A stretch of DNA of 64,000 nucleotides from Pseudarthrobacter siccitolerans (GTDB taxonomy: Bacteria > Actinomycetota > Actinomycetes > Actinomycetales > Micrococcaceae): assembly GCF_030823375.1 (NCBI RefSeq), contig NZ_JAUSXB010000001.1:1922001-1986000 (forward strand). The letters run 5' to 3'. The position numbers and the translations under genes were made by a program. The notes under the pieces are model-generated. The model searched no databases. It saw nothing but the letters and a program-made list of their open reading frames with translations, and had not been told where the DNA came from. Below, in pieces: positions 6,147 to 33,078 of the stretch (position 1 is the stretch's first letter; every line of letters starts with the position of its first letter).

Positions 6147-6908
6147 TCAGCCGCGGCCGATGAACGGCATGCCGGCGGCGGTGATCACCACGGACCCCAC
6201 ACTTGCCGACGGCGGCATGTTGGCCATCATCAGGATGGCGCGGGCTGCATCCTCCACCGGAAAGGTGGGCTCAACCCGGCGGCTGCCGTCGGCCTGGAGC
6301 GCGCCCGCCCCAACGCCGATGGTGTCCATGATGTCGGTGGCCGTGTTGCCGATGTCGATCTGCCCGCAGGTGATGCCGAAGTCCCGGCCGTCGAGCTCGA
6401 TGCTTTTGGTCAGCCCGGTCATGGCGTGCTTGGTGACGGCGTAGGCCACCGTCCGTGGCCGGGGCGAGTGCGCTGAGATGGAGCCGTTGTTGATGATCCG
6501 GCCGCCCTGCGGATCCTGCGCCTTCATGGCCCGGACGGCGGCCGCGGCAGAGAGCATGGATCCGGTCAGGTTCACCGCCAGGGTGGCATCCCAGTCGGCC
6601 AGCGAGATCTCGTCCACGCTGGCCGCCGGACCGAACACCCCGGCGTTGTTGAACAGCAGGTCCAGCCGCCCCCACCTTTGGCGGGTTGCCTCGAAAAGGC
6701 GCTCGACGTCGTCGGGCCGGGTGACGTCGCAGGTGACCGGAAAAGCGTGCGGATGGCCGTCCGCAGTCTCCACCAGCTGCTGTTCGCGCCGCCCGGCGAG
6801 GGCAACGGCGTAGCCGTCGGCCAGGAGAAGGCGGGCCACCGCCCGGCCGATGCCGGAACCCGCTCCGGTGACCACTGCGATGCGGCCCGGGGCCTGGGGA
6901 TGGTTCAA
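6147..6908 (-). CDS. Short-chain dehydrogenase/reductase (SDR)
   Basis: A classical SDR of 253 residues. The Rossmann motif TGAGSGIG lies near residues 16-23, NNAGV in the middle, the catalytic serine in NGSIS, and Tyr-x-x-x-Lys in YAVTKHA. It should use NAD(P)(H) to oxidise or reduce an alcohol/carbonyl substrate that cannot be named from sequence. It is the last gene of a three-gene minus-strand run with the NCS1 permease and the racemase-family enzyme (gaps 24 and 44 bp), so its substrate may relate to the imported hydantoin- or purine-like compound. Confidence 0.85.
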   Translation of the reverse strand: MNHPQAPGRIAVVTGAGSGIGRAVARLLLADGYAVALAGRREQQLVETADGHPHAFPVTCDVTRPDDVERLFEATRQRWGRLDLLFNNAGVFGPAASVDEISLADWDATLAVNLTGSMLSAAAAVRAMKAQDPQGGRIINNGSISAHSPRPRTVAYAVTKHAMTGLTKSIELDGRDFGITCGQIDIGNTATDIMDTIGVGAGALQADGSRRVEPTFPVEDAARAILMMANMPPSASVGSVVITAAGMPFIGRG

Positions 6909-6952
6909 ACTGTTCTCCTGTTGTGCCGGTTGCCGCCGCGCAAGGCCTTGCG

Positions 6953-7696
6953 TTAGAGGGAGGCCGGCACGCCCGCGCTGTTCAGCGGCCAGCCTACGAC
7001 GGTCTTGGGCCGCGGCGCAGCGTAGGTCCGGACCTTGGATGTGGAAAGGCGCATGCGGACCAGGGATTCGGCGATGGTTACGGCGGAGGCAACACCATCC
7101 ACAACCGGCACGCCGGCACGCCGCCTGATCTGCTCATCCAGGCCGGCCATCCCGCCGCAGCCGAGCACAATCACCTCGGCTTTGTCCTGGCTGACGGCCA
7201 GCATGGCCTGGCTGATGATGGCTTCCACGGCGCGGTCCGGTTCCTCGTCGAGTTCCAGGACGGCCATGCCGCTGGCCCGGACTGACGCGCAGCGGGCATC
7301 AAGGCCGGCAAGTTTGAGCCGGTCCTCGATCAGCGGGACGGTCCGGTCCAGGGTGGTGACCACTGAATACTTGTGGCCCAGGAACATCGCGGTGCTGGCC
7401 GCCGCCTCGGTGATATCCACTACCGGGACGTCGAGCAGCTCCTGGAGCCCCTCGCGACCGTGCTCGCCGTACCCGGCCTGGACGACGGCGTCGAACGGCT
7501 CGGGATAGCGGGTCACCGCATCCATCACTGCGATGGCCGCAAGGTAGCTTTCGAAGTTCCCCTCGCAGGAGTCCGCCCCGAAGCGCGGCGTGATGCCGAC
7601 GATTTCCGTTCCCGGTGACGCGATGCTGCGGGCCTGGGCGGCGATGGAGGCCGTCATGGACCCGGTGGTGTTGACGTTGGCGACGAGTATGCGCAT
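6953..7696 (-). CDS. Aspartate/glutamate (hydantoin/allantoin) racemase superfamily enzyme with a single catalytic cysteine
   Basis: The 247-residue protein has the start MRILVANVNTTGSMT typical of hydantoin and allantoin racemases and the second catalytic cysteine in VIVLGCGGMAGL (Cys180). The first cysteine, expected in the loop before position 80, is replaced: the sequence reads VVQAGYGEHG with Gly75 at the expected site. Two-cysteine members racemise; a Gly/Cys arrangement is known from arylmalonate decarboxylase. It could therefore be a decarboxylase or an isomerase with another mechanism. It lies between an NCS1 permease gene and an SDR gene in one operon within the purine-degradation region, so an allantoin-related substrate is likely but unproven. 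Confidence 0.75.
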   Translation of the reverse strand: MRILVANVNTTGSMTASIAAQARSIASPGTEIVGITPRFGADSCEGNFESYLAAIAVMDAVTRYPEPFDAVVQAGYGEHGREGLQELLDVPVVDITEAAASTAMFLGHKYSVVTTLDRTVPLIEDRLKLAGLDARCASVRASGMAVLELDEEPDRAVEAIISQAMLAVSQDKAEVIVLGCGGMAGLDEQIRRRAGVPVVDGVASAVTIAESLVRMRLSTSKVRTYAAPRPKTVVGWPLNSAGVPASL

Positions 7697-7720
7697 GGGA
7701 ATCCTTTGTGGGTACTGGAG

Positions 7721-9289
7721 TTAGTGGGTGCTGGCGACGGCGATGGTCTCGCCGTCGCGGTCTTCCAGCCGCTGCGAGCGGTCCGCGATGAAGAAGTACA
7801 CCACTGCTGCGATGCCGGCGGCGAAGAACCAGGCGAACGGTGCCGCCGGCGCCAGCGCGGGGACGAACGCTATGAGGAGGGCGACGGCGGCGGCCGGCAC
7901 CAGTGCGGTAATCGCCTTGGGGTTGACACCGTTTTTGTAGTGGTAGGCGCCTTCCGGGGAGGCGGTGTAAAGCTCGGGAACGTTGACCTTGCCGCGGCGG
8001 ATGAGCCAGTAGTCGGCCATGACCACCCCGAACAGCGGGCCGAGGAGGGCACCGAGGCCGCCCAGGAAGTACACGATCACCAAGGGGTTGTTGTAGAGGT
8101 TCCAGGGCAGGATGACCAGGCCGATAACGGCGCTGACGATCGCTGCCTTGCGGAAGTTCAGGTGCTTGGGGAACAGGTTGGTCAGCGCATAGACAGGGGC
8201 CACGAAGTTGGCCATGAGGTTGACCGCGATGGTCAGGATGAGCAGCGCCAGGCAGGCCAGCACCAGGAACAGCGTGTTGGGGATGGTCCGGACGATGTCC
8301 GAAGGGCTCTCGATGATGGTGCCGTTAATCTTGAACTGCCCGCCCGCCAGGACCACCACAATGGCGCCGAACACGAGCATGTTGATGGGGATGCCCCAGA
8401 AGTTTCCCCGCACGATGGCCTTTTTGGAGACCGCGGAGCGGGTGAAGTCGCAGAAATTCAGGACGAACGTTCCGTAGATCGAGACCCAGAGGGCGCCGCC
8501 GGCGAAGATGGTGAGCCACATCTGGGGTCCTTCCAGGGCGTTGTCCGAGGACCAGGCGATGGCGCCGCCGGCTTCGATGAAGATCCAGATTGCGATGGCC
8601 GCCATGGTGGCCAGGATGACCGGCCCGGCAAACGCCTCATACTTGCGGATCATCTCCATGCCGAAGCTGACAATGACCAGCTGGACGATCCAGAGGATGA
8701 CGAAAGCGATCCAGCCGAGGGTGGACAGTCCGAGGATGGAGTTTTTGTCCAGCTCCCCCAGCGTGGGGAACATCGCCACGAGCATTACGCGGAAGACCAC
8801 GGAGGCGAGGTAGGTCTGGATGCCGAACCAGGCCACGGCCACGGCGCCGCGCAGGAGGCTCGCGATTTGTGCTCCGCGGATTCCGAAACTGATCCGGCTC
8901 ATCACGGGGAAGGGGACGCCGGTTTTGACTCCCATAAACCCGGAAAGGGTCAGGAGCCCAAAGAGGAGCGCTGCGCCGATGCCCAGGGCAAGGAGGATCT
9001 GCCAGCCACCGAGGCCCAGGGCGAAGAGCCCGATAGCGAAGGCATAGTTGCCGAGGCTGTGGACGTCGTTGGCCCAGAGGGTGAAGATGCTGTAGCCGGA
9101 CCAGCTGCGGCCGGCCTGTTTGGTGGGGGCGAGGTCTGCGTTGTAGAGGGTGGGGCTGATGGCCTGGCCTGACGCCGCACTTGCTGATGCGCAAAGAGCG
9201 TCAATGCCCGTTGCCGGGTGTGCGGAAGAATCTGACGGCGCTGTCAGGTCAGGAGCCGCGTCAACGCCCGCCGGTGGAGGGGTCTGCAT
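7721..9289 (-). CDS. NCS1-family nucleobase/hydantoin:cation symporter
   Basis: An inner-membrane permease of 522 residues with about 12 hydrophobic segments starting after residue 65. The NCS1 hallmarks are WSGYSIFTLWANDVHSLGNYAFAIG in TM1 and the GFMGVKTGVPFPVMSR region (TM3). Relatives include Mhp1 (hydantoin), PucI (allantoin) and CodB (cytosine). With a hydantoin/allantoin-racemase-family gene 24 bp downstream, allantoin or a related ring compound is the likeliest cargo. It is the first gene of the permease-racemase-SDR operon, with an operator-like TTCCACATTGCGAAA about 66 bp upstream of the start. Confidence 0.85.
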   Translation of the reverse strand: MQTPPPAGVDAAPDLTAPSDSSAHPATGIDALCASASAASGQAISPTLYNADLAPTKQAGRSWSGYSIFTLWANDVHSLGNYAFAIGLFALGLGGWQILLALGIGAALLFGLLTLSGFMGVKTGVPFPVMSRISFGIRGAQIASLLRGAVAVAWFGIQTYLASVVFRVMLVAMFPTLGELDKNSILGLSTLGWIAFVILWIVQLVIVSFGMEMIRKYEAFAGPVILATMAAIAIWIFIEAGGAIAWSSDNALEGPQMWLTIFAGGALWVSIYGTFVLNFCDFTRSAVSKKAIVRGNFWGIPINMLVFGAIVVVLAGGQFKINGTIIESPSDIVRTIPNTLFLVLACLALLILTIAVNLMANFVAPVYALTNLFPKHLNFRKAAIVSAVIGLVILPWNLYNNPLVIVYFLGGLGALLGPLFGVVMADYWLIRRGKVNVPELYTASPEGAYHYKNGVNPKAITALVPAAAVALLIAFVPALAPAAPFAWFFAAGIAAVVYFFIADRSQRLEDRDGETIAVASTH

Positions 9290-9355
9290 AGGGGGATCTC
9301 CAGTTCTAGGTATTCCGCCGTGGTGAGCTCACGGCCCCTGGGGCCGGTTCTGTTA

Positions 9356-9370
9356 TTCCACATTGCGAAA
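9356..9370. promoter_or_regulatory. Operator-like site upstream of NCS1 permease
   Basis: TTCCACATTGCGAAA matches the perfect palindrome upstream of the guanine deaminase operon at 12 of 14 arm positions. It is an imperfect inverted repeat with a one-base centre, and is probably bound by the IclR-type regulator of the region (inference). Confidence 0.5.
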
Positions 9371-9547
9371 TGAAGATATTGAATCGTGAAAACAGCTTAT
9401 GACGTGGATCACCTTCGGTCAAGGAGTGTCGCCTGCATGGCCGGTCATAATTCGCTGGTTCGCCCCAGTGCGCTGGTGCAGTCAGGCGGCGGAAGAACCT
9501 GCTTTGACCGGGAACATTAGCCGCAGCTATTCTCATAAGGCAATAAT

Positions 9548-9568
9548 GTTTTCTCACAATACGAAAAC
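9548..9568. promoter_or_regulatory. Operator-like site upstream of aceE
   Basis: GTTTTC-N9-GAAAAC forms a perfect 6-bp inverted repeat ending 35 bp before the aceE start. Inside it CACAATACGAAAAC differs by one base from CATAATACGAAAAC upstream of the malic enzyme gene (27820-27833). This is the strongest direct sign that both genes share a regulator. Confidence 0.55.
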
Positions 9569-9603: not shown

Positions 9604-12366
<2,763 letters not shown>

Positions 12367-12449: not shown

Positions 12450-13079
12450 ATGGGGAACATGGAGGAGGTCCGGACCACGGGGATTGTGCTTGCAGCCGGC
12501 GCCGGCACCAGGCTGGGCAAAGGTCCCAAGGCACTGCTCCCGTATCGTGGCCGGCCGCTGGTGGAATCCGTCGCCGGGGCGCTGCTCGACGGCGGCTGCC
12601 GGGAGGTGGTGGTGGTGCTCGGCGCCGGCGCTCCGGACGTGGCGGCCATCGCCGAACTGGACCGCTACCGGACGGTGGTGAACCACGAATGGCAGTCAGG
12701 GATGGGCAATTCCCTGCTGCTCGGCAACGCCAGCGCGGATCCCAGGGACCATCTGATGGTGGCGCTCGTGGACCAGCCCGGCGTGACTCCGCGGGCAGTG
12801 GGGCGGCTGCTTGCGGCCCACCGTGCTGGCCGGGTCACCGCGGCTGCCTACGACGGCGGAGCTGCCGCAACAGAGGGTTCAGGCGGCAGGTTCCGGCGCG
12901 GTCATCCGCTGGTCATCGACGCCGGCCTGAGGGACGCTGTGGCCGGTACAGTTACGGGCGACTCCGGGGCGCGCGGCTTCCTGCAGGCCCATCCGGAGCT
13001 GGTGGACGAGGTGGACTGCAGCGACCTTTCCACCGGACTGGACGTTGACACGCCGGAGCAGCTGTACCTCCTGGGCTAG
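12450..13079 (+). CDS. MobA-like nucleotidyltransferase (molybdenum cofactor cytidylyltransferase type)
   Basis: A 209-residue NTP-transferase with the signature GIVLAAGAGTRLGKGPKALLPYRGRPLVE near residues 11-38 and VALVDQPGV carrying the metal-binding aspartate. It resembles MocA, which adds CMP to molybdopterin to form the MCD cofactor of xanthine-dehydrogenase-family enzymes. The xanthine dehydrogenase operon ends about 1.7 kb away, which supports this role. The ATG at 12450 has GTGAGG upstream. The gene converges on a UDG-family gene, with a 4-bp overlap of the 3' ends. MobA-like transfer of GMP is less likely. Confidence 0.75.
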   Translation: MGNMEEVRTTGIVLAAGAGTRLGKGPKALLPYRGRPLVESVAGALLDGGCREVVVVLGAGAPDVAAIAELDRYRTVVNHEWQSGMGNSLLLGNASADPRDHLMVALVDQPGVTPRAVGRLLAAHRAGRVTAAAYDGGAAATEGSGGRFRRGHPLVIDAGLRDAVAGTVTGDSGARGFLQAHPELVDEVDCSDLSTGLDVDTPEQLYLLG

Positions 13080-14823: not shown

Positions 14824-17655
14824 TCAGAGAGCCGAGCGCTGCAGGTTGGGCACCAGCCCCGCTTCCTTAAGTCCCAGGTAGATCTTGTCCCGGGCAATCG
14901 GCAGGGTGCCGAATCGCACTCCGGTGGCGTTGCGGATGGCGTTCGCGAGGGCGGGTGCCACGGGATTGAAGGGGCTTTCGCTCATGGACTTGGCACCGAG
15001 CGGGCCCAGCTTGTCGTTGGTATCCGCGAAGTACACTTCGCTGCGCGGCACGTCCGCAAAGGTGGGGATGTGGTACTGCCGCAGGATGTCCGTGGTGACC
15101 CTGCCGTCGTCGTCAATCACCACCTCCTCATACAGCGTGGCACCGATGGCCTGGGCAATCCCGCCCTCGATCTGGCCGCGGCACTGGCGCGGATTCACCA
15201 CCACGCCGGCGTCCGCCGCCTGCACGCTCTGCAGGATTTTCAGCTCGCCCGTCCCGCGGTTCACCGCCACCCTGAAACCGTGGACGTTGAAGGCCACGGA
15301 CCGAGGCGTCCCGCCCCAGCGGCCTTCCGCTGCGAGTTCGACGCCGGCTTCCGCAGCCGCCTGCGCTAGTTCAGCGAGCGGCACGGGCGTTCCGTCGATG
15401 ATGATGGCGTCCCCGTCGAGGACGCAGGCGGAGGCCTGGGTCTGGTGGATTCCCGCGGCGAACGCGCGGATGCGTACGGCCAGTTCCTCGGCGGCGGCCA
15501 GCGTTGCCTTGCCGGCCACCACAGTGCCCGCGGAGCCGAAGGCCCCGGTATCGTGCTCCACCAGGTCAGTATCGGATTGCCGCACCGCTACCCGCGCCGC
15601 TTCCGTGGACAACGCGGTGGCCGCCAACTGGGCGTGGACGGTGGTGGTGCCGTTACCGAACTCGGCGGTCCCGACGTCGGCCTGGTACGTTCCGTCCGGC
15701 AGGAGCCGGAGCCGGGAATGGGCAAAGTGGCCGCGCGGGGGCACGGTGTCAATCATGGACAGCGCGGTCCCCTCGCCGGTCAGCCACTCCGGCCCCAGTT
15801 CGTCCAGGCCGGCAGCCCGGTAGCGCTCCCGGCCTCGGGCCAGCGCGTCGCGGACGAGGCTCAGGCACTGGTCCAGCCCGTAACTGCCGTAATGGACGTC
15901 CTCCTCCGGCTCCGGCTGGGTGGACAGCATCCGGTCCCCTTCGCGCACCATGTTCCGGCGGCGGAATTCCGCGGGATCCATGCCGATGCCGGCCGCGAGC
16001 TCGTCCATGGCCGACTCGATGGCAAAGATCATCTGGCTCAGCCCGTAGCCCCGGAACGCTCCGGCGGGGACCGTGTTGGTGTACATCGCGTGGGCGTCCA
16101 CCTTCTTGTTGGTGCAGTTGTACACGCTCAGGGATTCGCCGCAGCCGTGGAACATCACACCCGGCCCGTGGTTGCCGTAGGCGCCGGTGTTGGTCAGGAC
16201 ATCCAGTTCCAGGGCCGTGAGCCGGCCGTCATTGCTGGTGCCGGCCTTGAGCTTGATGGTGAACGGATGGCGGGTGGTGGTGGCGGTGAACTGCTCGGTC
16301 CTGGTCAGTTCGAGCTGGACGGGCCGCCCCAGCTTGAGGGCTGCGAGCGCCACGATGTCCTCGGTCAGGACCTCCTGCTTCCCGCCGAAACCGCCGCCCA
16401 CCCGGCCGGCCACCACGTGGACCTGCTTCTCCGGAAGCCCGAACACCCGGCACAGGGTCCGCCGGACCAGGAACGGCACCTGGCTGGAGGTCCGGACCTG
16501 CAGGCGGCCTTCGCCGTCCACCGACGCGATGGCGGCGTGGGTTTCCAGGGCCACGTGCTGGACGCGCTGGGTGCGGTAGGTGTGTTCGTGGATGAAGTCC
16601 GCGGCGGCGAAGCCCTCGGCAACGCTCCCCAGTTCGGAGTGGAGCTCGGCCACCACATTGCGGTCCGGGCGGGAGATGCGGGCCACCGTTCCATCCTTGT
16701 CCCCGTGGACCAGCGGAGCGCCGGGAAGGAGCGCGTCCTGCGGTGAGAAGACCGCGGGCAGTTCCTCGTACTCAACCTCCAGTGCCCGCACCCCTGCTTC
16801 GGCGGCGGCTACTGTTTCGGCCACCACCGCGGCGACGCGCTGGCCCCGGAACCGCACCACGTCATCGAGCACGCGGGTATCGTCCGGGTCATCGGTGAAC
16901 AGTTCGTGCTGGGCGGTGGAGAACAGCTGTTCGGGTGCGTCCTGGTGGGTGAAGACCGCCACTACGCCGGGGAGATTCATCGCTGCATCGGTGTTGATGG
17001 ACAGCACCCGGGCATGCGCATGCGGCGAGCGCAGGAGCTTAAGGTGGAGCAGGCCCTGCAGCTGGCCTGCCGGGACATCCAGGGTGTAGCGGGCGGTACC
17101 GGTGACCAATGCCCGGCTGGCGGGTGCGGGGACGTCGTCGCCCAGCTGCCCCGGCTCCGGATCCGGCTGCCCCTCCCCCGCAATTCCGGAGGCCTGACCC
17201 TTGGGAGCCGGGTGGCCGGCAGCCCCGCAGACGGCATCCGAAATGGCCCGGTATCCAGTGCACCGGCAGAGGTTTCCCTTCAGGTTCCGGGGCAGGTTCT
17301 CCTTCTGTTCGTCATCGAACGTTGCGGCCGTCATCAGCATCCCCGCCGTGCAGAACCCGCACTGGAAGCCCTGCCGCTCCATAAACTGCTGCTGGACGGG
17401 GTGGAGGTCCGCGCCGTCGCCTGCCGTTGAAGCCAGGCCCTCGATAGTGGTGACAGCGTGCCCCTCTGCCCGGACGGCGGGATAGATACAGCTGTGTACC
17501 GGAGTGCCGTCCACGTGCACGGTGCAGGCTCCGCAGTCGCCACCGTCGCAGCCCTTCTTGACGCCCAGGTTCCCCTGTTCCCGGAGGAAGGTGCGCAGGC
17601 ACTGGCCGGGCCGCGGGGCAGTTTCAGCCGATACGCCGTTGATCTCGATGGCCAT
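14824..17655 (-). CDS. Xanthine dehydrogenase-type molybdenum hydroxylase, fused [2Fe-2S] and molybdopterin subunits
   Basis: A 943-residue fusion. Residues 1-160 form the small iron-sulfur subunit with two [2Fe-2S] sites: CDGGDCGACTVHVDGTPVHSC and CGFCTAGM...LCRCTGY. From about 190 onward it is the large molybdopterin subunit: aldehyde oxidase/xanthine dehydrogenase hammerhead (GTARYTLDVPAGQL), then GRVGGGFGGKQ and GAFRGYG for cofactor binding. The C-terminal AKSMSESPFNPVAPA segment keeps the catalytic glutamate where most relatives read KGVGEPP. It would hydroxylate hypoxanthine/xanthine to urate with electrons leaving through the FAD subunit encoded immediately upstream (2-bp gap). The operon order is deaminase-AzgA-XdhC-FAD subunit-this gene. 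Confidence 0.9.
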   Translation of the reverse strand: MAIEINGVSAETAPRPGQCLRTFLREQGNLGVKKGCDGGDCGACTVHVDGTPVHSCIYPAVRAEGHAVTTIEGLASTAGDGADLHPVQQQFMERQGFQCGFCTAGMLMTAATFDDEQKENLPRNLKGNLCRCTGYRAISDAVCGAAGHPAPKGQASGIAGEGQPDPEPGQLGDDVPAPASRALVTGTARYTLDVPAGQLQGLLHLKLLRSPHAHARVLSINTDAAMNLPGVVAVFTHQDAPEQLFSTAQHELFTDDPDDTRVLDDVVRFRGQRVAAVVAETVAAAEAGVRALEVEYEELPAVFSPQDALLPGAPLVHGDKDGTVARISRPDRNVVAELHSELGSVAEGFAAADFIHEHTYRTQRVQHVALETHAAIASVDGEGRLQVRTSSQVPFLVRRTLCRVFGLPEKQVHVVAGRVGGGFGGKQEVLTEDIVALAALKLGRPVQLELTRTEQFTATTTRHPFTIKLKAGTSNDGRLTALELDVLTNTGAYGNHGPGVMFHGCGESLSVYNCTNKKVDAHAMYTNTVPAGAFRGYGLSQMIFAIESAMDELAAGIGMDPAEFRRRNMVREGDRMLSTQPEPEEDVHYGSYGLDQCLSLVRDALARGRERYRAAGLDELGPEWLTGEGTALSMIDTVPPRGHFAHSRLRLLPDGTYQADVGTAEFGNGTTTVHAQLAATALSTEAARVAVRQSDTDLVEHDTGAFGSAGTVVAGKATLAAAEELAVRIRAFAAGIHQTQASACVLDGDAIIIDGTPVPLAELAQAAAEAGVELAAEGRWGGTPRSVAFNVHGFRVAVNRGTGELKILQSVQAADAGVVVNPRQCRGQIEGGIAQAIGATLYEEVVIDDDGRVTTDILRQYHIPTFADVPRSEVYFADTNDKLGPLGAKSMSESPFNPVAPALANAIRNATGVRFGTLPIARDKIYLGLKEAGLVPNLQRSAL

Positions 17656-23929: not shown

Positions 23930-24066
23930 CTGATCCTCCTTCGAGGCAGTTGGAATAGTTCCGCAAAATGGAAAGAAACTTTTGCTATGTGGAATAGTCT
24001 AGGCTGTGGCCAACGGCTTCGTCAATGGTTCGGATGCCTCCCGGTCACAAACCGAATTTTCGCTTT

Positions 24067-24256: not shown

Positions 24257-24279
24257 CATACCGGAAGTTGGGACAGACC

Positions 24280-25188
24280 ATGAGCAGCAAATTCATCCTC
24301 GGCGAAAACCAGTACGGAAAGGCCGAGGTCCGCGTCGTCAAGATCACCCGTGACAGCGACCGCCACGAAATCGAAGACCTGAACGTCACCTCGCAGCTGC
24401 GCGGTGACTTCGCAGCCGCCCACCTCGAAGGCGACAACGCCCACGTGGTGGCTACGGACACCCAGAAGAACACCATCTACGCGTTCGCCCGGGACGGCGT
24501 CGGCTCCCCCGAGGCGTTCCTGCTTCGCCTCGGCGAGCACTTCACCTCCAGCTTCGACTGGGTCACCGGTGGCCGCTGGGAAGCTGAGTCCTACAGCTGG
24601 GACCGGATCCAGGCCCACGGCGCCGGGCACGATCACTCCTTCGTGCGCAACGGCCAGGAAGTCCGCACCGCGGTCCTGGTCCGCGACGGCGCCACCACCC
24701 ACCTCATCTCCGGGCTCAAGGACCTGACCGTCCTGAAATCCACCCAGTCCGGCTTCGTGGGCTACCCGAAGGACAAGTACACCACCCTGCCCGAGACCAC
24801 CGACCGCATCCTGGCCACCGATGTCTCGGCCCGCTGGCGCTTCAAGACGGGCACCGACTTCAGCGCCCTGGACTTCAACAAAAATTACGACGACGTCAAG
24901 GGACTCCTGCTCGAAGGCTTCACGGAGAAGTACTCCCACGCCCTCCAGCAGACCCTGTTCGACATGGGCACCAAGGTACTGGAAGCCCACAGCGAGATCG
25001 ACGAGATCAAGTTCTCCATGCCCAACAAGCACCACTTCCTGGTGGACCTCTCGCCGTTCGGCCTCGACAACCCCAATGAGGTCTTCTTCGCCGCGGACCG
25101 CCCCTACGGCCTGATCGAGGCCACCGTCCAGCGCGAGGACGCTAACCCCGCGGACATCGCCTGGTCCGGCATCGCCGGCTTCTGCTAA
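24280..25188 (+). CDS. Urate oxidase (uricase), cofactor-free
   Basis: Oxidises urate with O2 to 5-hydroxyisourate and H2O2. The 302-residue length equals that of the Arthrobacter globiformis enzyme. The tunnelling-fold motifs are YGKAEVRVVKI with the catalytic lysine (Lys14), VVATDTQKNTIY with the catalytic threonine, the second-half FSALDFNKNYDDVKGLL segment, and SEIDEIKFSMPNKHHFLVDLSPFG, the signature near the C-terminus. The ATG beginning MSSKFILGEN is chosen over an upstream TTG. The urate-type permease gene follows on the same strand, separated by a strong GC hairpin. Confidence 0.95.
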   Translation: MSSKFILGENQYGKAEVRVVKITRDSDRHEIEDLNVTSQLRGDFAAAHLEGDNAHVVATDTQKNTIYAFARDGVGSPEAFLLRLGEHFTSSFDWVTGGRWEAESYSWDRIQAHGAGHDHSFVRNGQEVRTAVLVRDGATTHLISGLKDLTVLKSTQSGFVGYPKDKYTTLPETTDRILATDVSARWRFKTGTDFSALDFNKNYDDVKGLLLEGFTEKYSHALQQTLFDMGTKVLEAHSEIDEIKFSMPNKHHFLVDLSPFGLDNPNEVFFAADRPYGLIEATVQREDANPADIAWSGIAGFC

Positions 25189-25265: not shown

Positions 25266-25331
25266 CCGTTAGCCAGACCCCGTTAGCCAGACAATGTCGT
25301 CTGCCATGAACCAAGAAAGTCTGCCATGAAC
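25266..25331 (+). repeat. Paired short duplications ahead of the urate permease, creating a 7-codon upstream frame
   Basis: CCGTTAGCCAGAC occurs at 25266 and 25280, and GTCTGCCATGAAC at 25299 and 25319. The second duplication repeats the start-codon context. The first ATG (25306) opens a seven-codon frame whose TGA overlaps the permease ATG as ATGA, so ribosomes could reinitiate. Confidence 0.6.
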
Positions 25332-26831
25332 ACCAGAAAGAAACCGGCCGCTGCTGCCGCCGGAAAAGGCACCCGCTCAAGCCGCCCGGAGGACCAGCGC
25401 CTTCCCATTGCCAGCACCTTCGCCTACGGCTTCCAGCACGTCCTCACCATGTACGGCGGCATCATCGCCCCGCCCCTGATCATTGGCGCCGCGGCCGGGA
25501 TGTCCTCGCAGGATATCGGCCTGCTGATCGCGGCCTGCCTCTTCGTCGGCGGGCTCGCGACCATCCTGCAGACCGTCGGCATCCGCTTCTTCGGCTCGCA
25601 GCTGCCGCTGGTCCAGGGTGTCTCCTTCGCGGGCGTTTCCACCATGGTGGCCATCGTGCACGGCGGCGGCGGGATCCAGGCGGTGTTCGGGTCGGTCATC
25701 GCGGCATCACTGATCGGCCTGCTGATCACACCGCTCTTTTCCAAGATCATCCGGTTCTTCCCGCCCGTGGTCACCGGAACGGTCATCACCACCATCGGGC
25801 TGACCCTCATGCCTGTGGCGGCCAACTGGGCCATGGGCGGCAACAACAAGGCTGAGAACTACGGCAGCATGGCCAATATTGGACTGGCTGCGGCCACCAT
25901 GGCCATCGTCCTGCTGCTGAGCAAGGTGGGCAGCGCCGCTATCTCCCGGCTGTCTATCCTGCTGGCGATGGTCCTGGGCACGGGGATCGCTTTCGCCTTC
26001 GGCATGGCCGACTTCTCCAAAGTGGGCCAGGGCGAAATCGTCGCCTTCCCCACCCCGTTCGCCTTCGGCCCGCCAGTCTTCGAAATCGCCGCCATCATCT
26101 CCATGCTCATCGTCATCCTGGTGACCCTGACGGAGACTTCGGCGGACATCATCGCGGTGGGCGAGATCGTGGGCACCAAGGTCGATTCCAAGAGGATCGG
26201 CGACGGCCTCCGGGCTGACATGCTCTCCAGCGCCATCTCGCCGCTGTTCAACTCCTTCACTCAGAGCGCCTTCGCCCAAAACGTGGGCCTGGTGGCCATC
26301 ACGGGTGTCAAGAGCCGCTTTGTGGTCAGCGCCGGTGGCCTGATCCTCGTGATCCTGGGCCTGCTGCCGGTCCTTGGCCGGGTGGTCGCAGCGGTGCCGA
26401 CGCCTGTCCTCGGAGGTGCCGGCGTCGTACTCTTTGGTACGGTGGCCGCCAGCGGCATCCGCACGCTGTCCAAGGTGGAGTACCGGAACAACATGAACCT
26501 GATCATCGTGGCGGCGTCCATCGGGTTCGGCATGATCCCGATTGCCGCGCCGGCTTTCTACGACAAGTTCCCGTCCTGGTTCGGCACCATCTTCCACTCC
26601 GGCATCAGCTCAGCCGCCGTGATGGCCATCCTGCTGAACCTGCTCTTCAACCACCTCAAAGCCGGCAACTCCGAAAACCAGTCCGTGTTCGTGGCCGGCA
26701 CCGAACGGGTTGTGCGGGAAGAGGACCTGAAATGCCTGGCCGACGGCGACCGCTATGAAGGCGGCAAGCTCATCGACTGCGAGGGCAAGGAAGTCCGGAT
26801 CGAGTCGACCGAGAAGGCGTCAGAACACTAG
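25326..26831 (+). CDS. NCS2-family urate/xanthine permease
   Basis: A 501-residue membrane protein with about 12-14 hydrophobic segments. NCS2 signatures are FAYGFQHVLTMYGGIIAPPLIIG in TM1, FFGSQLPLVQGVSFAGVSTM (TM3), and the QSAFAQNVGLVAITGVKSRFV segment typical of the urate/xanthine group (UacT, PucJ/PucK). It should import urate or xanthine with protons or sodium. It follows uricase in the same direction. The C-terminal 50 residues are hydrophilic and highly charged. The start is the second of two duplicated ATG contexts and overlaps a mini upstream frame. Confidence 0.9.
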   Translation: MNTRKKPAAAAAGKGTRSSRPEDQRLPIASTFAYGFQHVLTMYGGIIAPPLIIGAAAGMSSQDIGLLIAACLFVGGLATILQTVGIRFFGSQLPLVQGVSFAGVSTMVAIVHGGGGIQAVFGSVIAASLIGLLITPLFSKIIRFFPPVVTGTVITTIGLTLMPVAANWAMGGNNKAENYGSMANIGLAAATMAIVLLLSKVGSAAISRLSILLAMVLGTGIAFAFGMADFSKVGQGEIVAFPTPFAFGPPVFEIAAIISMLIVILVTLTETSADIIAVGEIVGTKVDSKRIGDGLRADMLSSAISPLFNSFTQSAFAQNVGLVAITGVKSRFVVSAGGLILVILGLLPVLGRVVAAVPTPVLGGAGVVLFGTVAASGIRTLSKVEYRNNMNLIIVAASIGFGMIPIAAPAFYDKFPSWFGTIFHSGISSAAVMAILLNLLFNHLKAGNSENQSVFVAGTERVVREEDLKCLADGDRYEGGKLIDCEGKEVRIESTEKASEH

Positions 26832-26882: not shown

Positions 26883-26904
26883 GTGGTCAGCGAAAGGAGT
26901 GGAT

Positions 26905-27660
26905 TCAGGTGCGGTTCAGTTCCAGCGAGATGGCCTCGGCGGCTTCGCGGAGGACCGGCACCGCTCTGTCCGCAAAGTTCTCGTCCACCCGGGAGACGGG
27001 ACCGGACACCGAGATTGCGGTGGGGGTGGGAGCGTTGGGCACCGCCATGGCGAAGCAGCGCACACCGAGTTCCTGCTCCTCCTCGTCAATGGAGTAGCCC
27101 CGCTCGCGGATGAGCTTCAGGTCGGCCAGGAGGTCCTCGACGTCGCCGATGCTCTTGACGGTGGGCGTCGGCATCCCGGCGCGGGTCACAATGCCGCGCA
27201 CCGTCTCGTCATCCAGCTGGGCCAGGATGGCCTTCCCGACGCCGGTGGCATGGGTGTGGGCGCGCCGGCCCACCTCGGTAAACATGCGCATGGAGTGCAG
27301 CGAGGGCACCTGCGCCACGTAGATCACCATGTCCGAGTCCAGCACCGCCATGTTCGAGGTCTCCCCCAGCCGGTCCACCAGTGTTTTCAGCTGCGGGCGG
27401 GCCACGGCACCAAGCTGCTTGTTGGCTCCTTCGCCCAGCCGGATGAGCCGTGGGCCCAGTGCATAGCGGCGGTTTGGCAGCTGCCGGACATAGCCAAGGG
27501 ACACCAGCGTCCTCAACAGGCGGTGGATGGTGGGCAGCGGAAGGTCTGTGGACGACGACAGTTCGCTGAGCGTAACGTCACCCCCCGCGTTCGTAATGAG
27601 CTCCAGCAGTTCGAAGACGCGCTCTACCGACTGCACGCCGCCCGAGGCTTTTTCTGCCAT
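26905..27660 (-). CDS. IclR-family transcriptional regulator
   Basis: A 251-residue regulator. The N-terminal winged helix spans about residues 8-70 (SVERVFELLELI...LSELSSSTDLPLPTIHRLLRTLVSLGYV), followed by the IclR effector domain with MVIYVAQVPSLHSMRMFTEVGRRAHTHATGVGKAILA. The effector pocket of relatives such as AllR binds glyoxylate or allantoin-pathway intermediates. The start at MAEKASGG has AGGAG at good spacing. It diverges from malic enzyme and sits at the centre of the purine-degradation region, so it is the prime candidate for reading the TTYCRCAWTRYGAAA-like sites, including one in its own promoter. Confidence 0.9.
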   Translation of the reverse strand: MAEKASGGVQSVERVFELLELITNAGGDVTLSELSSSTDLPLPTIHRLLRTLVSLGYVRQLPNRRYALGPRLIRLGEGANKQLGAVARPQLKTLVDRLGETSNMAVLDSDMVIYVAQVPSLHSMRMFTEVGRRAHTHATGVGKAILAQLDDETVRGIVTRAGMPTPTVKSIGDVEDLLADLKLIRERGYSIDEEEQELGVRCFAMAVPNAPTPTAISVSGPVSRVDENFADRAVPVLREAAEAISLELNRT

Positions 27661-27689
27661 TCCGTTGTCTCCTACGGCTCGGAATCCGA

Positions 27690-27719
27690 CAACTCTTATC
27701 CGCATCGTGAAAAGAGTTG
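27690..27719. promoter_or_regulatory. Inverted repeat in the IclR gene promoter
   Basis: CAACTCTT and AAGAGTTG form a perfect 8-bp inverted repeat with a 14-base centre that contains ATCCGCATCGTGAAA, a weak match to the shared operator motif. It is 30 bp upstream of the regulator start, a good place for autoregulation. Confidence 0.45.
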
Positions 27720-27816
27720 TTTAGAACACCCAACATACCGCACCCCACCACGCACCGCGATGCATCCCTTTCAGTCTTATTCGGAGGGCTTGCATTTCCA
27801 TCTTGTAGATAATAAT

Positions 27817-27833
27817 ATCCATAATACGAAAAC
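27817..27833. promoter_or_regulatory. Operator-like site upstream of malic enzyme
   Basis: ATCCATAATACGAAAAC lies in a strikingly AT-rich stretch 61 bp before the malic enzyme ATG. Its last 14 bases match the site upstream of aceE at 13 positions. Confidence 0.5.
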
Positions 27834-27893: not shown

Positions 27894-29336
27894 ATGGCGA
27901 ACCCCAGCCCCGGAAATTCGATCACCCTGCGTGTGGAAGCACCGTCAAGCTTCAGCGCCACCAGCGAACTCGCTGCTGCCGTGGGAGCGGCCGGTGCCGC
28001 GATCACCGCACTGGACGTCAGCGAATCCCACCACGAGACACTCGTCGTGGACGTCACCTGCAACACCACCGACGACGAACACGCCGCCCGGGTCAAGGAC
28101 GCCCTTAACGCGCTCGACGGCGTCACCGTCCAGCACGTCTCGGACCGCACCTTCCTGATGCACCTGGGCGGCAAGCTGGAAGTTGTCCCCAAAGTAGCCC
28201 TGCGCAACCGCGACGATCTTTCCCGCGCCTACACTCCCGGCGTCGCCCGCGTCTGCCTCGCCATCGCCGAGGACCCCGCGGCGGCCCGCAACCTGACCGT
28301 CAAGCGCAACACCATCGCCGTCGTCACCGACGGTTCTGCCGTGCTGGGCCTGGGCAACATCGGCCCCGCTGCAGCACTTCCCGTGATGGAGGGCAAGGCT
28401 GCCCTGTTCAAGCAGTTCGCCAACGTGGACGCGTGGCCGGTCTGCCTGGATACCCAGGACACCGAAGAGATCATCAAAATCGTCAAGGCCCTCGCCCCGG
28501 TTTACGGCGGTGTGAACCTCGAGGACATCGCCGCCCCGCGCTGCTTCGAAATCGAGAACCGGCTCCGAGCGGAGCTGGACATCCCGGTATTCCACGACGA
28601 CCAGCACGGCACCGCCATCGTCACCCTCGCGGCCCTGGTCAACGCACTGCGCGTGGTGGGCAAGAAACTGGACGAGGTGAAGATTGTGGTTTCGGGAGTT
28701 GGCGCGGCCGGCTCCGCCATCATCCAGCTCCTCAAGGCACAGGGCGCGCAGCACATCGTCGCCGCCGGCCGCTCCGGTGCCATTCACTCGGGTGAGACTT
28801 ACGGGGATGAGCACCGCAGCTGGATCGCGGCGAACACGAACGAGGAAGGCTTCGCCGGCACGCTCCACGAGGCAATCGTCGGTGCGGATGTGTTCATCGG
28901 CGTCAGCGCCCCGCACGTCATCGGCGAGGAACAGGTGGCAGCGATGGCCGCGGACGCCATCGTGTTCGCCATGGCCAACCCGACGCCGGAAATCGACCCG
29001 GTCATCGCATCCCGGCACGCCGCCGTAGTAGCCACCGGCCGCAGCGACTTCCCCAACCAGATCAACAACGTACTGGCCTTCCCGGGCTTCTTCCGCGGCC
29101 TGCTCGACGCCGGCGCATCAGACATCACCCCGGAGATGCTGGTGGCCGCCGCGGAAGCGATCGCCAAGCGGGTAGCTGACGACGAGCTCAATGCCAGCTA
29201 CATTATCCCCAGTGTCTTCGATCCCCACGTGGCCGCCGATGTTGCCTCAGCCGTTGCAGCTGCCGCCCACGCCGCAAACGTGGCAACCGCGGCCGAAGCA
29301 GCCGAGGAACCCGAAGCCGCCCTGGCCAGCGCCTGA
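27894..29336 (+). CDS. NAD(P)-dependent malic enzyme with N-terminal ACT-like domain
   Basis: Decarboxylates malate to pyruvate. The 480-residue protein has an extra N-terminal regulatory domain (about residues 8-80, [20 protein letters not shown]...) of the ACT type. The catalytic domain follows: [33 protein letters not shown], the metal site in [15 protein letters not shown] and the NAD-binding [16 protein letters not shown]. The C-terminus is an alanine/glutamate-rich tail. The ribosome site is AGGAGGACATTCA. Malate synthase follows after 37 bp, so the pair converts glyoxylate plus acetyl-CoA to malate and then pyruvate. The likely controller is the divergent IclR gene. Confidence 0.93.
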
Positions 29337-29373: not shown

Positions 29374-30972
29374 ATGGCCATCACCGTCACAGACCCCCGG
29401 CCCATTGAACGCGCGGAGGAAATCCTCACCCCCAAGGCACTTGCCTTCATCGAGGAACTCCACACGCGCTTCGCCGGCACCCGCAACGAGCTCCTGGCAG
29501 CCCGTGCCGTCAAGCGGCAGCGTGTGGCCGAAACCGGCAAGCTGGACTTCCTGCCGGAGACGCAGGACGTGCGCGACGGCGACTGGAAGGTTGCGCCGGC
29601 ACCGGCAGCCTTGCAGGACCGCCGGGTTGAGATGACCGGGCCGGCCTCGCCGGCAAAGATGGCCATCAACGCACTGAACTCGGGCGCCAAGGTGTGGCTC
29701 GCGGACCTTGAGGATGCCAGCACCCCCACATGGGGCAACGTCATCGACGCCATCCTGAACCTCCGCGACGCCGCCCAGGGCACCCTCAGCTATACGTCGG
29801 ACGAAGGCAAGGAGTACAGGCTCCGCACGGACGCTCCGCTCGCCGTCGTGGTGGCCCGCCCCCGCGGCTGGCACATGCCGGAGAAGCACCTGCTCCTCAA
29901 CGGTGAACCGGCTGTGGGCGCCCTGGTGGACTTCGGCCTGCACTTCTTCCACGTGGCCAAGCAGCTGGTGCTCAACGGGCAGGGCCCGTACTACTACCTG
30001 CCCAAGATGGAGAGCCACCTCGAGGCCCGGCTGTGGAACGACGTTTTTGTCTTCGCCCAGGATTACCTGGGGTTGGGCCAGGGCACCATCCGCGCCACGG
30101 TGCTGATCGAGACCATTCCGGCCGCTTTCGAGATGGACGAGATCCTGTACGAACTGCGGGACCACGCCTCCGGCCTGAACGCCGGCCGCTGGGACTACCT
30201 GTTCAGCATCATCAAGTACTTCCGGGACGCCGGCGAGGAGTTCGTACTTCCGGACCGCGCTTCGGTTGTGATGACCGCGCCGTTCATGCGCGCCTACACC
30301 GAACTATTGGTCAAGACCTGCCACAAGCGCGGAGCCTTCGCGATGGGCGGCATGGCGGCCGTCATCCCCAACCGCCGCCACCCGGAGGTTACCGAGGCGG
30401 CCTTCGCCAAGGTCCGCGCAGACAAGACCCGTGAGGCCAACGACGGGTTCGACGGTTCCTGGGTTGCGCACCCGGACCTGGTGCCCACCTGCCGCGAGGT
30501 GTTCGATGCGGTGCTCGGGGACAAGCCGAACCAGCTGGACAAGCAACGCCCCGAGGTTTCGGTAACGGCGGAGCAGCTGCTGGACGTCACCTCCGCCGGG
30601 GGCCAGGTCACCGAGGCCGGGCTGCGGCTCAACCTTTACGTGGCCGTCGCCTACACGGCGGTCTGGCTGTCCGGGAACGGTGCAGTGGCCATCCACAACC
30701 TGATGGAGGACGCCGCCACCGCCGAAATCTCCCGCTCACAGGTTTGGCAGCAGATCCGCAACAAGTCAGTCCTCGCAGACACCGGCAACACGGTGACAAA
30801 GGAACTCGTGGAGCGGATCCTGGGCGAGGAGACCGAACGGCTCCGCACGGAGGTGGGCGACGAAGCGTTCACCCGCTACTACCAGCCTGCCAGCGGACTG
30901 ATCACGGACATCTGCCTCTCCGACGATTACACGGACTTCCTCACCACCCCGGCCTACGAACTGGTGGGCTGA
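29374..30972 (+). CDS. aceB: Malate synthase A
   Basis: Condenses glyoxylate with acetyl-CoA to malate. The 532-residue length is that of the A isoform. The visible motifs are VWLADLEDASTPTWGN (near residues 110-125), RPRGWHMPEKH, the GTIRATVLIETIPAAFEMDEILYEL strand with catalytic and metal residues, and DGSWVAHPDLVP, a family signature. The ATG at 29374 follows AAGGAAAGGACC. It is placed between malic enzyme and an aldolase-like gene in a five-gene purine/glyoxylate run. No isocitrate lyase gene is in the window, which favours glyoxylate from ureides rather than from the glyoxylate shunt. Confidence 0.95.
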   Translation: MAITVTDPRPIERAEEILTPKALAFIEELHTRFAGTRNELLAARAVKRQRVAETGKLDFLPETQDVRDGDWKVAPAPAALQDRRVEMTGPASPAKMAINALNSGAKVWLADLEDASTPTWGNVIDAILNLRDAAQGTLSYTSDEGKEYRLRTDAPLAVVVARPRGWHMPEKHLLLNGEPAVGALVDFGLHFFHVAKQLVLNGQGPYYYLPKMESHLEARLWNDVFVFAQDYLGLGQGTIRATVLIETIPAAFEMDEILYELRDHASGLNAGRWDYLFSIIKYFRDAGEEFVLPDRASVVMTAPFMRAYTELLVKTCHKRGAFAMGGMAAVIPNRRHPEVTEAAFAKVRADKTREANDGFDGSWVAHPDLVPTCREVFDAVLGDKPNQLDKQRPEVSVTAEQLLDVTSAGGQVTEAGLRLNLYVAVAYTAVWLSGNGAVAIHNLMEDAATAEISRSQVWQQIRNKSVLADTGNTVTKELVERILGEETERLRTEVGDEAFTRYYQPASGLITDICLSDDYTDFLTTPAYELVG

Positions 30973-30975
30973 GGC

Positions 30976-32250
30976 ATGGCCGCACCCAAGCCCTCCTTGT
31001 CCCCGGGGAACCTTGCGCACATCGACGGGCAGCTGGCCGCCACAGACCGCCTGCTGGAGCAGAACTACCCGGGCGACGACGGCTCGCGCCAGCCCGTCCA
31101 CACGGTGTACGTCCCTGCGGACCGGTTCACGCCGTCGTTCGCTGCTGAGTGGGGCGCCGAAGCACTGGCGACGGCGGAAGCGCACGGCGGGCTGGAAAAG
31201 CTCGGCGCGCTGCTGGGCCAGGACGCCGCACTGGCCGGGGCGGTCGCTCCGCGCGTCGAAGCGAAGCTTGCCAGCGAACCGATCGAGGACCTGCGGCTCG
31301 ATTTTGAGGATGGTTTCGGGGACAGGGGCGACGACGCCGAGGACGCCGCCGCGGTTGCTGCAGCTTCCGCGGTGGCCACCGCCGTCGCGGCCGGCTCCGC
31401 TCCCCCGTTCATCGGCATCCGGTTCAAGTGCTTTGAAGCGGCCACCCGTGCCCGCGGACTGCGGACGCTGGACCTGTTCGTCTCCGGCCTCGCCTCAGCC
31501 GGTGAGTTGCCCGAGGGGCTGGTCCTCACCCTGCCCAAGGTGACCACTGTGGCCCAGGTCCAGGCCATGGACTACGCCGTGTCCCGGCTTGAGGAAGTCC
31601 ACTCGCTCCCCGCGGGCCGACTCCGCTTCGAGGTGCAGGTGGAAACGCCGCAACTCATCCTGGGGCCGGAAGGAACCTCGCCGGTGGCGCAGCTGCCGCA
31701 CACCGTTCCGGGCCGCATCAGCGGCCTGCACTACGGCACCTACGACTACTCGGCATCGCTGCAGATCTCCGCCGAGTACCAGTCCATGGAGCACCCCGTG
31801 GCGGACTTCGCCAAGGAAGTCATGCAGCTGGCCGTGGCAGGCACCGGCATCCGGCTGTCCGACGGGTCAACCAACATCATTCCGGTGGGCGACAACGTGG
31901 GGAACGCCTGGCAACTGCACGGCCGCCTGGTCCGGCGGTCGCTGGAACGCGGTTACTACCAGGGCTGGGACCTGCACCCGGCCCAGCTGCCCAGCCGCTT
32001 CGCCGCCACCTACGCCTTCTACCGGCAGGGGCTTCCCGCGGCTGCCGGCCGGCTGCGCAACTATGTGGAGCAGACCGAAGGCGGCGTCATGGACGAGCCA
32101 GCAACTGCCCGGGCCCTGGCAGCCTTCGTGCTGCGCGGCGTCCAATGTGGCGCCGTCGGTGCGGAGGAAGTCCAGGCGCTTGCCGGCGTCGGCATCCCCC
32201 AGCTCACCGGACTGGCGCACCCGCGGCTCGCCATCACTTCCAACTCCTAG
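30976..32250 (+). CDS. Uncharacterised aldolase/citrate-lyase-like protein (DUF6986 type)
   Basis: A 424-residue protein that I recognise as the actinobacterial DUF6986 type, without a known reaction. Visible elements resemble the HpcH/HpaI and citrate lyase beta fold: LRLDFEDGFGDRGDDAEDAA (acidic metal or substrate loop, near residues 100-118), GIRFKCFE, LVLTLPKV, LRFEVQVETPQLIL and LHYGTYDYSASLQIS. It starts 3 bp after the malate synthase stop and is followed by ureidoglycine aminohydrolase after 15 bp. This tight placement suggests it acts on a C2-C4 acid or ureide of the same route, perhaps as an aldolase or lyase (inference). Confidence 0.7.
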   Translation: MAAPKPSLSPGNLAHIDGQLAATDRLLEQNYPGDDGSRQPVHTVYVPADRFTPSFAAEWGAEALATAEAHGGLEKLGALLGQDAALAGAVAPRVEAKLASEPIEDLRLDFEDGFGDRGDDAEDAAAVAAASAVATAVAAGSAPPFIGIRFKCFEAATRARGLRTLDLFVSGLASAGELPEGLVLTLPKVTTVAQVQAMDYAVSRLEEVHSLPAGRLRFEVQVETPQLILGPEGTSPVAQLPHTVPGRISGLHYGTYDYSASLQISAEYQSMEHPVADFAKEVMQLAVAGTGIRLSDGSTNIIPVGDNVGNAWQLHGRLVRRSLERGYYQGWDLHPAQLPSRFAATYAFYRQGLPAAAGRLRNYVEQTEGGVMDEPATARALAAFVLRGVQCGAVGAEEVQALAGVGIPQLTGLAHPRLAITSNS

Positions 32251-32265
32251 GTAAGGATCTCTTTT

Positions 32266-33078
32266 ATGGGCAAGTACTACTCCCCCACCGGCGGTCTGCC
32301 GCCGCAGACCCACCTGACCACAGAGCGGGCCATCGTCACCGAGGCCTACACGGTGATCCCCAAGGGCGTCATGACGGACATCGTCACGTCCAACCTGCCC
32401 GGCTTTTCGAACACCCGCTCCTGGATCATCGCGCGCCCCATCTCCGGCTTCGCCACGACGTTCTCCCAGTTGATTGTGGAGATCGGCCCCGGGGGCGGCG
32501 CGCCCAAGGCCGAGTTCGAGGCCGGCGTCGAAGGCGTAATTTTTGTTACCCGCGGCAGGGTCAACCTCACCCTTGACGGCGAGCTGCACCAGCTGGAGGA
32601 AGGCGGCTACGCCTACCTGGCCGCTGGTTCGGAGTGGGGCCTGGAGAACGTCTCCAGCGACGTTGTCTCCTTCCACTGGATCCGCAAGGCCTACGAGCGC
32701 CTTGAGGGCTTCGAGGCCAAGTCCTTGGTCACCAACGAAAAGGACGTTGAGCCCACGTCGATGCCGGACACCAACGGCGCGTGGAAGACCACCCGCTTCA
32801 CGGACTCCAGCGATCTGGCCCACGACATGCAGGTGAACATCGTGACCTTCCAGCCCGGCGGCGTGATCCCGTTCCCGGAAACCCACGTGATGGAACACGG
32901 CCTGTACGTCCTGGAGGGCAAGGCCATGTACCTGCTGAACAACGACTGGGTGGAGGTGGAGGCCGGGGACTTTATGTGGCTGCGCGCCTTCTGCCCGCAG
33001 GCCTGCTACGCCGGCGGCCCGGGCGAGTTCCGCTACCTGCTCTACAAGGACATGAACCGCCAGGTGCGCCTCACCTGA
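32266..33078 (+). CDS. allE: (S)-ureidoglycine aminohydrolase, bicupin
   Basis: Converts ureidoglycine, the product of allantoate amidohydrolase, to (S)-ureidoglycolate and ammonia using a manganese bicupin. The 270-residue protein starts MGKYYSPTGGLPPQT, as AllE proteins do. It shows two cupin halves: VEGVIFVTRGRVNLTLDGELHQL with the EEGGYAYLAAGS strand, and GGVIPFPETHVMEHGLYVLEGKAMYLLN carrying the metal-binding His/Glu set, ending CYAGGPGEFRYLLYKDMNR. It is the last gene of the maeA-aceB-DUF6986-allE run and feeds glyoxylate production. Confidence 0.92.
   Translation: MGKYYSPTGGLPPQTHLTTERAIVTEAYTVIPKGVMTDIVTSNLPGFSNTRSWIIARPISGFATTFSQLIVEIGPGGGAPKAEFEAGVEGVIFVTRGRVNLTLDGELHQLEEGGYAYLAAGSEWGLENVSSDVVSFHWIRKAYERLEGFEAKSLVTNEKDVEPTSMPDTNGAWKTTRFTDSSDLAHDMQVNIVTFQPGGVIPFPETHVMEHGLYVLEGKAMYLLNNDWVEVEAGDFMWLRAFCPQACYAGGPGEFRYLLYKDMNRQVRLT

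Follow-up and report, generated by a model that had tools for sequence, protein, structure and literature searches.

A second pyruvate dehydrogenase E1 gene in a purine cluster of Pseudarthrobacter siccitolerans is probably part of a purine-to-glyoxylate regulon

The window analysed here is a stretch of 64,000 nucleotides of Pseudarthrobacter siccitolerans (G000:C1:1922001-1986000; genome size 4.5 Mb), whose genes were called from third-position GC and from NCBIfam and Pfam profiles. It contains a purine cluster (Table 1) that houses second copies of the genes for malic enzyme, malate synthase (aceB2) and the E1 subunit of pyruvate dehydrogenase (aceE2), an enzyme usually regarded as housekeeping. 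The first-pass annotation of this DNA had named purine, malate synthase, malic enzyme and aceE genes, all of which were recovered by NCBIfam or Pfam profile matches. It had also pointed out that the stretch holds no isocitrate lyase gene, and there is indeed none among the annotated genes; the glyoxylate-shunt pair is elsewhere, with one isocitrate lyase gene adjoining the other malate synthase gene (C1:3466886). The malic enzyme paralogue, 54% identical, is found at C1:2530201. The two full-length aceE copies of this genome are 91% identical. The other one, aceE1 (C1:839433-842168), is followed by genes for a PucR-type regulator, an acyl transferase, a ketoacyl-ACP synthase III and a ketoacyl synthase, by inference fabD, fabH and fabF for the last three, that is, a fatty-acid-synthesis neighbourhood.

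The aceE2 gene is flanked by the oppositely oriented NCS1 permease gene and by a MocA/NboR-like gene on its own strand, and forms a separate transcription unit that ends 15.5 kb ahead of the malic enzyme start. Further along, within a block at 26905-33078, the iclR gene diverges from a row of genes for malic enzyme, malate synthase, DUF6986 and (S)-ureidoglycine aminohydrolase, in which DUF6986 separates malate synthase from the aminohydrolase. The same genome has, roughly 240-260 kb from the cluster, genes for allantoinase, uraD and uraH and the glyoxylate carboligase (gcl) operon, in a second purine/glyoxylate region (L232, L233; G000:C1:2186001-2226000) where hyi-glxR-gcl-glycerate kinase-allantoinase and uraD-uraH each have an operator-like site. 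AceE2 passed the profile of the homodimeric E1 (TIGR00759, 1364.8 bits, cut-off 859.9) and failed the exception model TIGR03186 (1094.5 against 1408.3). The annotated cluster contains no genes for the E2 and E3 subunits, which were not searched for elsewhere in the genome.

Table 1. Genes, operator-like palindromes and the putative aceE2 promoter at the locus (positions in the window)
Feature	Position	Strand	Remarks
SDR oxidoreductase	6147..6908	-	frequent neighbour of aceE2 in relatives
Asp/Glu/hydantoin racemase family, possible allantoin racemase	6953..7696	-	
NCS1 permease, allantoin-permease-like	7721..9289	-	under equivalog cut-off
Operator-like palindrome	9354..9370		22.5 bits; 65 bp upstream of NCS1 gene, 234 bp upstream of aceE2
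Sigma-70-like aceE2 promoter, TTGACC-18-TATTCT	9504..9533	+	
Operator-like palindrome just 3' of aceE2 promoter	9550..9566		12.4 bits
aceE2, pyruvate dehydrogenase E1 (homodimeric type), second copy	9604..12366	+	TIGR00759
MocA/NboR-like nucleotidyltransferase	12450..13079	+	
Xanthine-dehydrogenase-type subunit, Fe-S and Mo parts fused	14824..17655	-	
Xanthine-dehydrogenase-type flavin adenine dinucleotide (FAD) subunit	17658..18593	-	
XdhC-type maturation factor	18584..19909	-	
Xan_ur permease	19943..21463	-	
Cytidine-deaminase-fold protein, likely guanine deaminase	21478..22056	-	
Operator-like palindrome, guanine/8-oxoguanine deaminase gap	22174..22190		17.2 bits
8-oxoguanine deaminase	22382..23743	+	681 bits, cut-off 532
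Two operator-like palindromes upstream of urate oxidase	23959..23996		18.2 and 18.0 bits
Urate oxidase (factor-independent urate hydroxylase)	24268..25188	+	374 bits, cut-off 168
PbuX-type xanthine permease	25326..26831	+	
IclR-family regulator, AllR/BhcR/IclR-like	26905..27705	-	glyoxylate-ligand residues largely kept
Operator-like palindrome over mechanical iclR open reading frame start	27696..27712		20.6 bits
Operator-like palindromes upstream of malic enzyme	27796..27831		20.9 and 25.7 bits
Malic enzyme, second copy	27894..29336	+	
Malate synthase A, second copy (aceB2)	29374..30972	+	TIGR01344 750 bits, cut-off 594.5; likely start 29374, mechanical open reading frame begins at 29191
DUF6986; predicted malate synthase/malyl-CoA lyase/CitE fold	30976..32250	+	
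(S)-ureidoglycine aminohydrolase	32266..33078	+	489 bits, cut-off 338; also passes bifunctional allantoicase model cut-off

The gene-order comparison raised in the first-pass annotation came out in its favour, the linkage of aceE to malic enzyme being conserved in relatives while the order varies. In the genus set of 61 genomes (threshold 1e-50), aceE matched in 59 and malic enzyme in 61, and the cluster-type malic enzyme was missing from G010, G018, G024, G044, G047 and G049. Because near-identical copies break assemblies, pairing of the loci by hand was confined to the 31 assemblies of no more than 10 contigs, and the remaining 30 genomes were left out. Two aceE loci together with the cluster malic enzyme were observed in 25 of the 31, one aceE lying at most 45 kb from this malic enzyme in 25 of 25, and 5 of the 31 had neither the second aceE nor the cluster malic enzyme (Fisher p 3.5e-5, kinship ignored). 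On 40 mapped stretches, cluster genes surround one aceE, and only weak paralogue matches (31-35%) are seen around the other. Since G010 and G049 (L111, L112) keep aceB2, DUF6986 and the aminohydrolase and have neither the cluster malic enzyme nor a second aceE, aceE2 tracks malic enzyme in these two genomes.

The family sample comprised 120 genomes, with counts taken from among the matches listed. Outside the genus, 31 genomes have at least two aceE matches and a malic enzyme match. In 24 of these, from 14 genera, aceE and malic enzyme share one contig with no more than about 40 kb between them; in the other seven (G064, G097, G105, G123, G129, G164, G168) they are on different contigs or the pair is not wholly among the matches listed. 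The position of aceE changes from locus to locus: beside iclR (L078, L080), beside urate oxidase (L077, L079, L083) or past xanthine dehydrogenase (L082, L084). Linkage to the cluster malic enzyme extends to the Microbacterium loci L120, L121 and L123. At these three and at L114, malic enzyme is directly followed by DUF6986 and the stretch has aceE and no malate synthase gene, one of the points on which the "complete" glyoxylate-oxidising loop announced by the first-pass annotation is overstated. In a wider search, at 70 of 80 named loci, again among the matches listed, no cluster partner above 50% identity accompanied malic enzyme (L125, L127-L139, L141-L196; several with a 28-34% XdhMo match), and the malic enzyme family as such is thus no marker of the module. 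One genome, G021, has a second module on a separate 258-kb contig (L048, C2), reading aminohydrolase-DUF6986-aceB-malic enzyme-iclR-aceE-NCS1-racemase. A plasmid origin of the module was considered and rejected, as no annotated purine genes surround the malic enzyme (68%) of a Rhodococcus plasmid, even though the G021 contig does carry the module.

Expectation-maximisation on 36 iclR-malic enzyme gaps, with aceE sequence excluded from training, yielded a 17-bp operator model; the proposed operator is of the type TTCC-R-Y-A-nn-R-Y-GGAA. Of the ten top-scoring sites of the window, with scores of 11.8 to 25.7 bits, all but one are located at malic enzyme, iclR, NCS1/aceE, the deaminase gap or urate oxidase. 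The exception (36987-37003, 15.7 bits) is about 360 bp upstream of a gene for a phosphoglycolate-phosphatase-like HAD phosphatase (35913-36626). Copies of aceE were called purine-linked when one or more of 11 cluster genes were present in their stretch at >50% identity, a definition that includes L100 (iclR only) and L113 (SDR only). L100 comes from one of five family genomes that combine two aceE matches with the lack of a malic enzyme match; there, aceE stands apart from the rest of the cluster genes and beside an iclR 73% like that of the window, with operator-like sites. In the 150 bp preceding aceE, a site of at least 11.3 bits was found for 30 of the 36 purine-linked copies and a site above 9.5 bits for 0 of the 45 others, both cut-offs being read off the result (p 5.4e-12; related genomes are not independent, so the p-values given here are descriptive). 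At 350 bp, a 12.5-bit threshold set post hoc, after the background scan, gave 30/36 against 0/43. The rank test at 150 bp gives the fairer comparison, because the strongest distal site in the genus may equally well belong to the divergent NCS1 permease. A model trained on other genera still separated the aceE copies of the genus (18 v 22, p 3.5e-8), and the reverse training, on only 5 genus gaps, separated copies of other genera more weakly (18 v 23, p 1.4e-5). None of 200 column-shuffled models reached the observed difference.

Outside its training set, the model scored 19.8 bits at hyi-glxR-gcl-glycerate kinase-allantoinase and 13.3 bits at uraD-uraH, and in 20 kb around isocitrate lyase it found no site above 10.3 bits. 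A degenerate operator pattern, which recovers neither the site at malic enzyme nor the proximal one at aceE2, matched 17 sites in the whole genome against 6 for the reversed control. Three of them are in the window, two are 60 and 81 bp upstream of the hyi-glxR-gcl-glycerate kinase-allantoinase and uraD-uraH genes, and 12 are elsewhere; neighbours were examined for four of these 12 (L222, L227, L230, L231; the open reading frames of L227 were not scanned). The match at L230 (1501-1515) precedes an NADP-specific glutamate dehydrogenase gene by about 150 bp, perhaps by chance or possibly through a link to ammonia assimilation. As the palindrome at 9550-9566 lies after the predicted aceE2 promoter, a repressor bound there would block aceE2 transcription. 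No promoter was found at malic enzyme by a simple-consensus scan.

The product of the iclR gene had the BhcR model (NF045644) as its best NCBIfam match, at 192 bits under a cut-off of 350; it also stayed below the cut-offs of the IclR model (158 bits) and of E. coli-type AllR (NF007548, 119 bits against 406). We compared it manually with the chain of E. coli IclR, taking reference residues from a table of PMC11323563, in which Gly160, Asp212, Ser239 and Ser241 of IclR bind the oxygens of glyoxylate or pyruvate. These four oxygen ligands are kept, the fifth, Ala161, is a valine, and the patch facing the pyruvate methyl group reads Ser, Met, Ala, Val. Because the oxygen ligands are retained, glyoxylate is the likely inducer, judged by this residue comparison.

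To compare the two kinds of aceE product, a tree was built from 81 AceE proteins, of which 36 are purine-linked and 45 are not, leaving out rows that cover <90% of the query or contain a stop (for example L064, L070, L091, L114). The purine-linked and other labels change at least 17 times on its starred branches. In 15 of 31 pairs, the purine-linked AceE is closest to the other copy of its own genome and not to purine-linked copies elsewhere, with identities between copies reaching 99%. Six genomes of the genus among the 15 (G012, G023, G034, G035, G039, G060) keep aceE in the same place with the same neighbours, which is why gene conversion would explain them better than repeated insertion. 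Purine-linked copies form a clade of their own in genera g7, g8, g10 and g20 (8 rows, support 94). No alignment column differed in frequency by more than 0.45 between purine-linked and other AceE, and none separates the copies. Taken with the 15 of 31 pairs, this makes aceE2 look like the same kind of enzyme as aceE1 under another switch.

From the gene content, the copies, their linkage, the operator-like sites and the partial homogenisation seen in the sequences, we infer repressor binding, a glyoxylate signal, the use of shared E2 and E3, and the direction and size of the flux, as follows. The locus is probably a purine-to-glyoxylate regulon that includes a branch of its own for the oxidation of glyoxylate, with an extra E1 that would be induced by glyoxylate. 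The IclR-family repressor would bind the palindromes at iclR, at malic enzyme-aceB2-DUF6986-aminohydrolase, at urate oxidase, at the deaminases, at the NCS1 permease and at aceE2, as well as those at hyi-glxR-gcl-glycerate kinase-allantoinase and uraD-uraH, and glyoxylate derived from ureides would release it. Malate synthase would join glyoxylate to acetyl-CoA, malic enzyme would convert the malate to pyruvate, and pyruvate dehydrogenase, made of the extra E1 and the shared E2 and E3, would regenerate acetyl-CoA for malate synthase, giving two CO2 and two reduced nicotinamides per glyoxylate. AceE2 would remain AceE1-like, by gene conversion in about half of the compared genomes, with the promoter being what differs. 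The dicarboxylic acid cycle genes (malate synthase, malic enzyme, pyruvate dehydrogenase E1) are all encoded, and to this extent the loop of the first-pass annotation stands; "complete" overstates it, since the cluster supplies E1 alone (E2 and E3 were not searched for) and a parallel gcl-glycerate route has the same operator.

Several observations weigh against this reading. The gcl-glxR-glycerate kinase genes offer glyoxylate another fate under the same operator, as main rival or as partner. In 16 of the 31 pairs, that of the window genome included, the purine copy is nearer to the purine copy of another genome (for the window AceE2, 93.3% against 91.2% to its own AceE1). At 12.4 bits, the proximal aceE2 site falls short of the highest background score, 15.0 bits over 719,968 positions, and is not decisive alone, so its weight comes from conservation across genomes; a good proximal site is lacking at three Microbacterium loci, at L078, where a distal operator-like site is present, and at L080, and the site is weak at L061. 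As for linkage, one of the 31 hand-paired genomes (G016, L110) has the cluster malic enzyme with a single aceE, and 28 genomes outside the genus, among the matches listed, have a malic enzyme match and one aceE match, malic enzyme standing alone in two of them (G061, L102; G093, L107). Malic enzyme with one aceE occurs also in G111 (a single partial match) and, within the genus, in G165. Clusters devoid of aceE are seen in single-aceE-match genomes at L103-L106, L108-L110 and L116, and no aceE lies within the stretch at L115 (that of G111), L117-L119, L122 and L140. Conversely, five family genomes (G084, G091, G117, G137, G176) have two aceE matches and no malic enzyme match among the matches listed. 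The dedicated E1 suggested by the first-pass annotation is supported by the linkage across genomes and, independently, by the shared operator; the relatives whose cluster lacks aceE are a further point on which "complete" says too much.

Aside from the regulon with its own oxidising branch, aceE2 could be induced with the regulon and mainly oxidise pyruvate from the gcl-glycerate route (tartronate semialdehyde, glycerate, phosphoenolpyruvate) rather than from malic enzyme, malate synthase serving only for overflow or filling. We regard this as a plausible alternative, although not the favoured one: the 19.8-bit site at hyi-glxR-gcl-glycerate kinase-allantoinase speaks for it, and the Arthrobacter Rue61a genome paper favours the D-glycerate route for glyoxylate (PMC3534580), whereas G010 and G049 keep aceB2-DUF6986-aminohydrolase without the cluster malic enzyme and the second aceE. 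It is very unlikely that AceE2 acts on another 2-oxo acid, such as glyoxylate itself or 2-oxobutyrate. Its gene sits in a glyoxylate-producing cluster, and the separate clade of g7, g8, g10 and g20, in which several copies match only from residues 17-21 on, raises the odds of such a change. However, a new substrate is disfavoured by the lack of a separating column and by the interleaving of the copies across most of the tree, and the window AceE2 aligns over residues 20-903 with E. coli AceE (1005 bits). Finally, a dosage duplicate placed among purine genes by chance would fit copies up to 99% identical and the many relatives that manage without a second aceE. We give this explanation hardly any credence and reject chance placement: the linkage recurs across 15 genera of the family although the gene order varies, and the other copy does not have the operator.

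The ureide steps point to DUF6986, the usual partner in the cluster. By sequence, it had no significant match to solved structures (best E 0.27), and its predicted fold resembles malate synthase A and malyl-CoA lyase, of the malate synthase/CitE superfamily. An AllA-type ureidoglycolate lyase (PF04115) was not detected in G000 at E 0.001, although the E. coli control was; allantoicase (PF03561) gave no match in the genome, nor did its positive control. Arthrobacter Rue61a is described in its genome paper as growing on allantoin and glyoxylate with no obvious genes for the allantoate step (PMC3534580). DUF6986 is therefore, by its modelled fold, a candidate for the ureidoglycolate-to-glyoxylate step or for a second malate synthase, and may be a pointer to the genes which that paper reports as not obvious in Arthrobacter. 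A bolder version, which we hold to be rather unlikely, is a self-contained allantoate-to-CO2 regulon where DUF6986 would release glyoxylate from ureidoglycolate (or replace an absent aceB) and the glyoxylate-switched E1 duplicate, often gene-converted, would close the loop. Next to aceE2, the nucleotidyltransferase may have a role in the molybdenum cofactor of xanthine dehydrogenase, from its gene position; the product of 12450-13079 also exceeds the nicotine blue oxidoreductase cut-off.

Altogether, aceE2 appears to be a duplicate retained for its regulation rather than for any new activity, homogenised with the first copy in about half of the genomes compared. Soil bacteria of the Arthrobacter group have a second copy of a central-metabolism gene among purine genes, apparently under the same switch as these, probably to burn leftover glyoxylate. 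Among the open-licence papers listed by our searches, no title or abstract beginning names an aceE copy in a purine cluster. The dicarboxylic acid cycle of Kornberg and Sadler likewise oxidises glyoxylate by malate synthase, a malate-to-pyruvate step and pyruvate dehydrogenase; in E. coli it reportedly runs on housekeeping enzymes, whereas here extra enzyme copies are grouped with purine genes and have operator-like sites in common. Streptomyces coelicolor AllR is reported to control allantoin genes and aceB, with malate synthase beside the allantoin genes under IclR-family control, similarly to the present locus; that system is not known to include an aceE copy. BhcR of the Paracoccus beta-hydroxyaspartate cycle, the best NCBIfam match of our regulator albeit below the equivalog cut-off, responds to glyoxylate (PMC11323563). 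E. coli AllR, also of the IclR family, regulates allantoin and gcl genes and binds DNA less in the presence of glyoxylate (PMC8222616, PMC11323563); compared with that regulon as described there, the operator is another one here and the proposed regulon adds the malic enzyme, aceB and aceE copies. In Pseudomonas aeruginosa, PA1498-PA1502 is an allantoin-inducible gcl cluster (PMC12694930), like ours a purine-linked inducible module taking glyoxylate to pyruvate; it uses the glycerate route, whereas the present locus carries genes that would regenerate acetyl-CoA.

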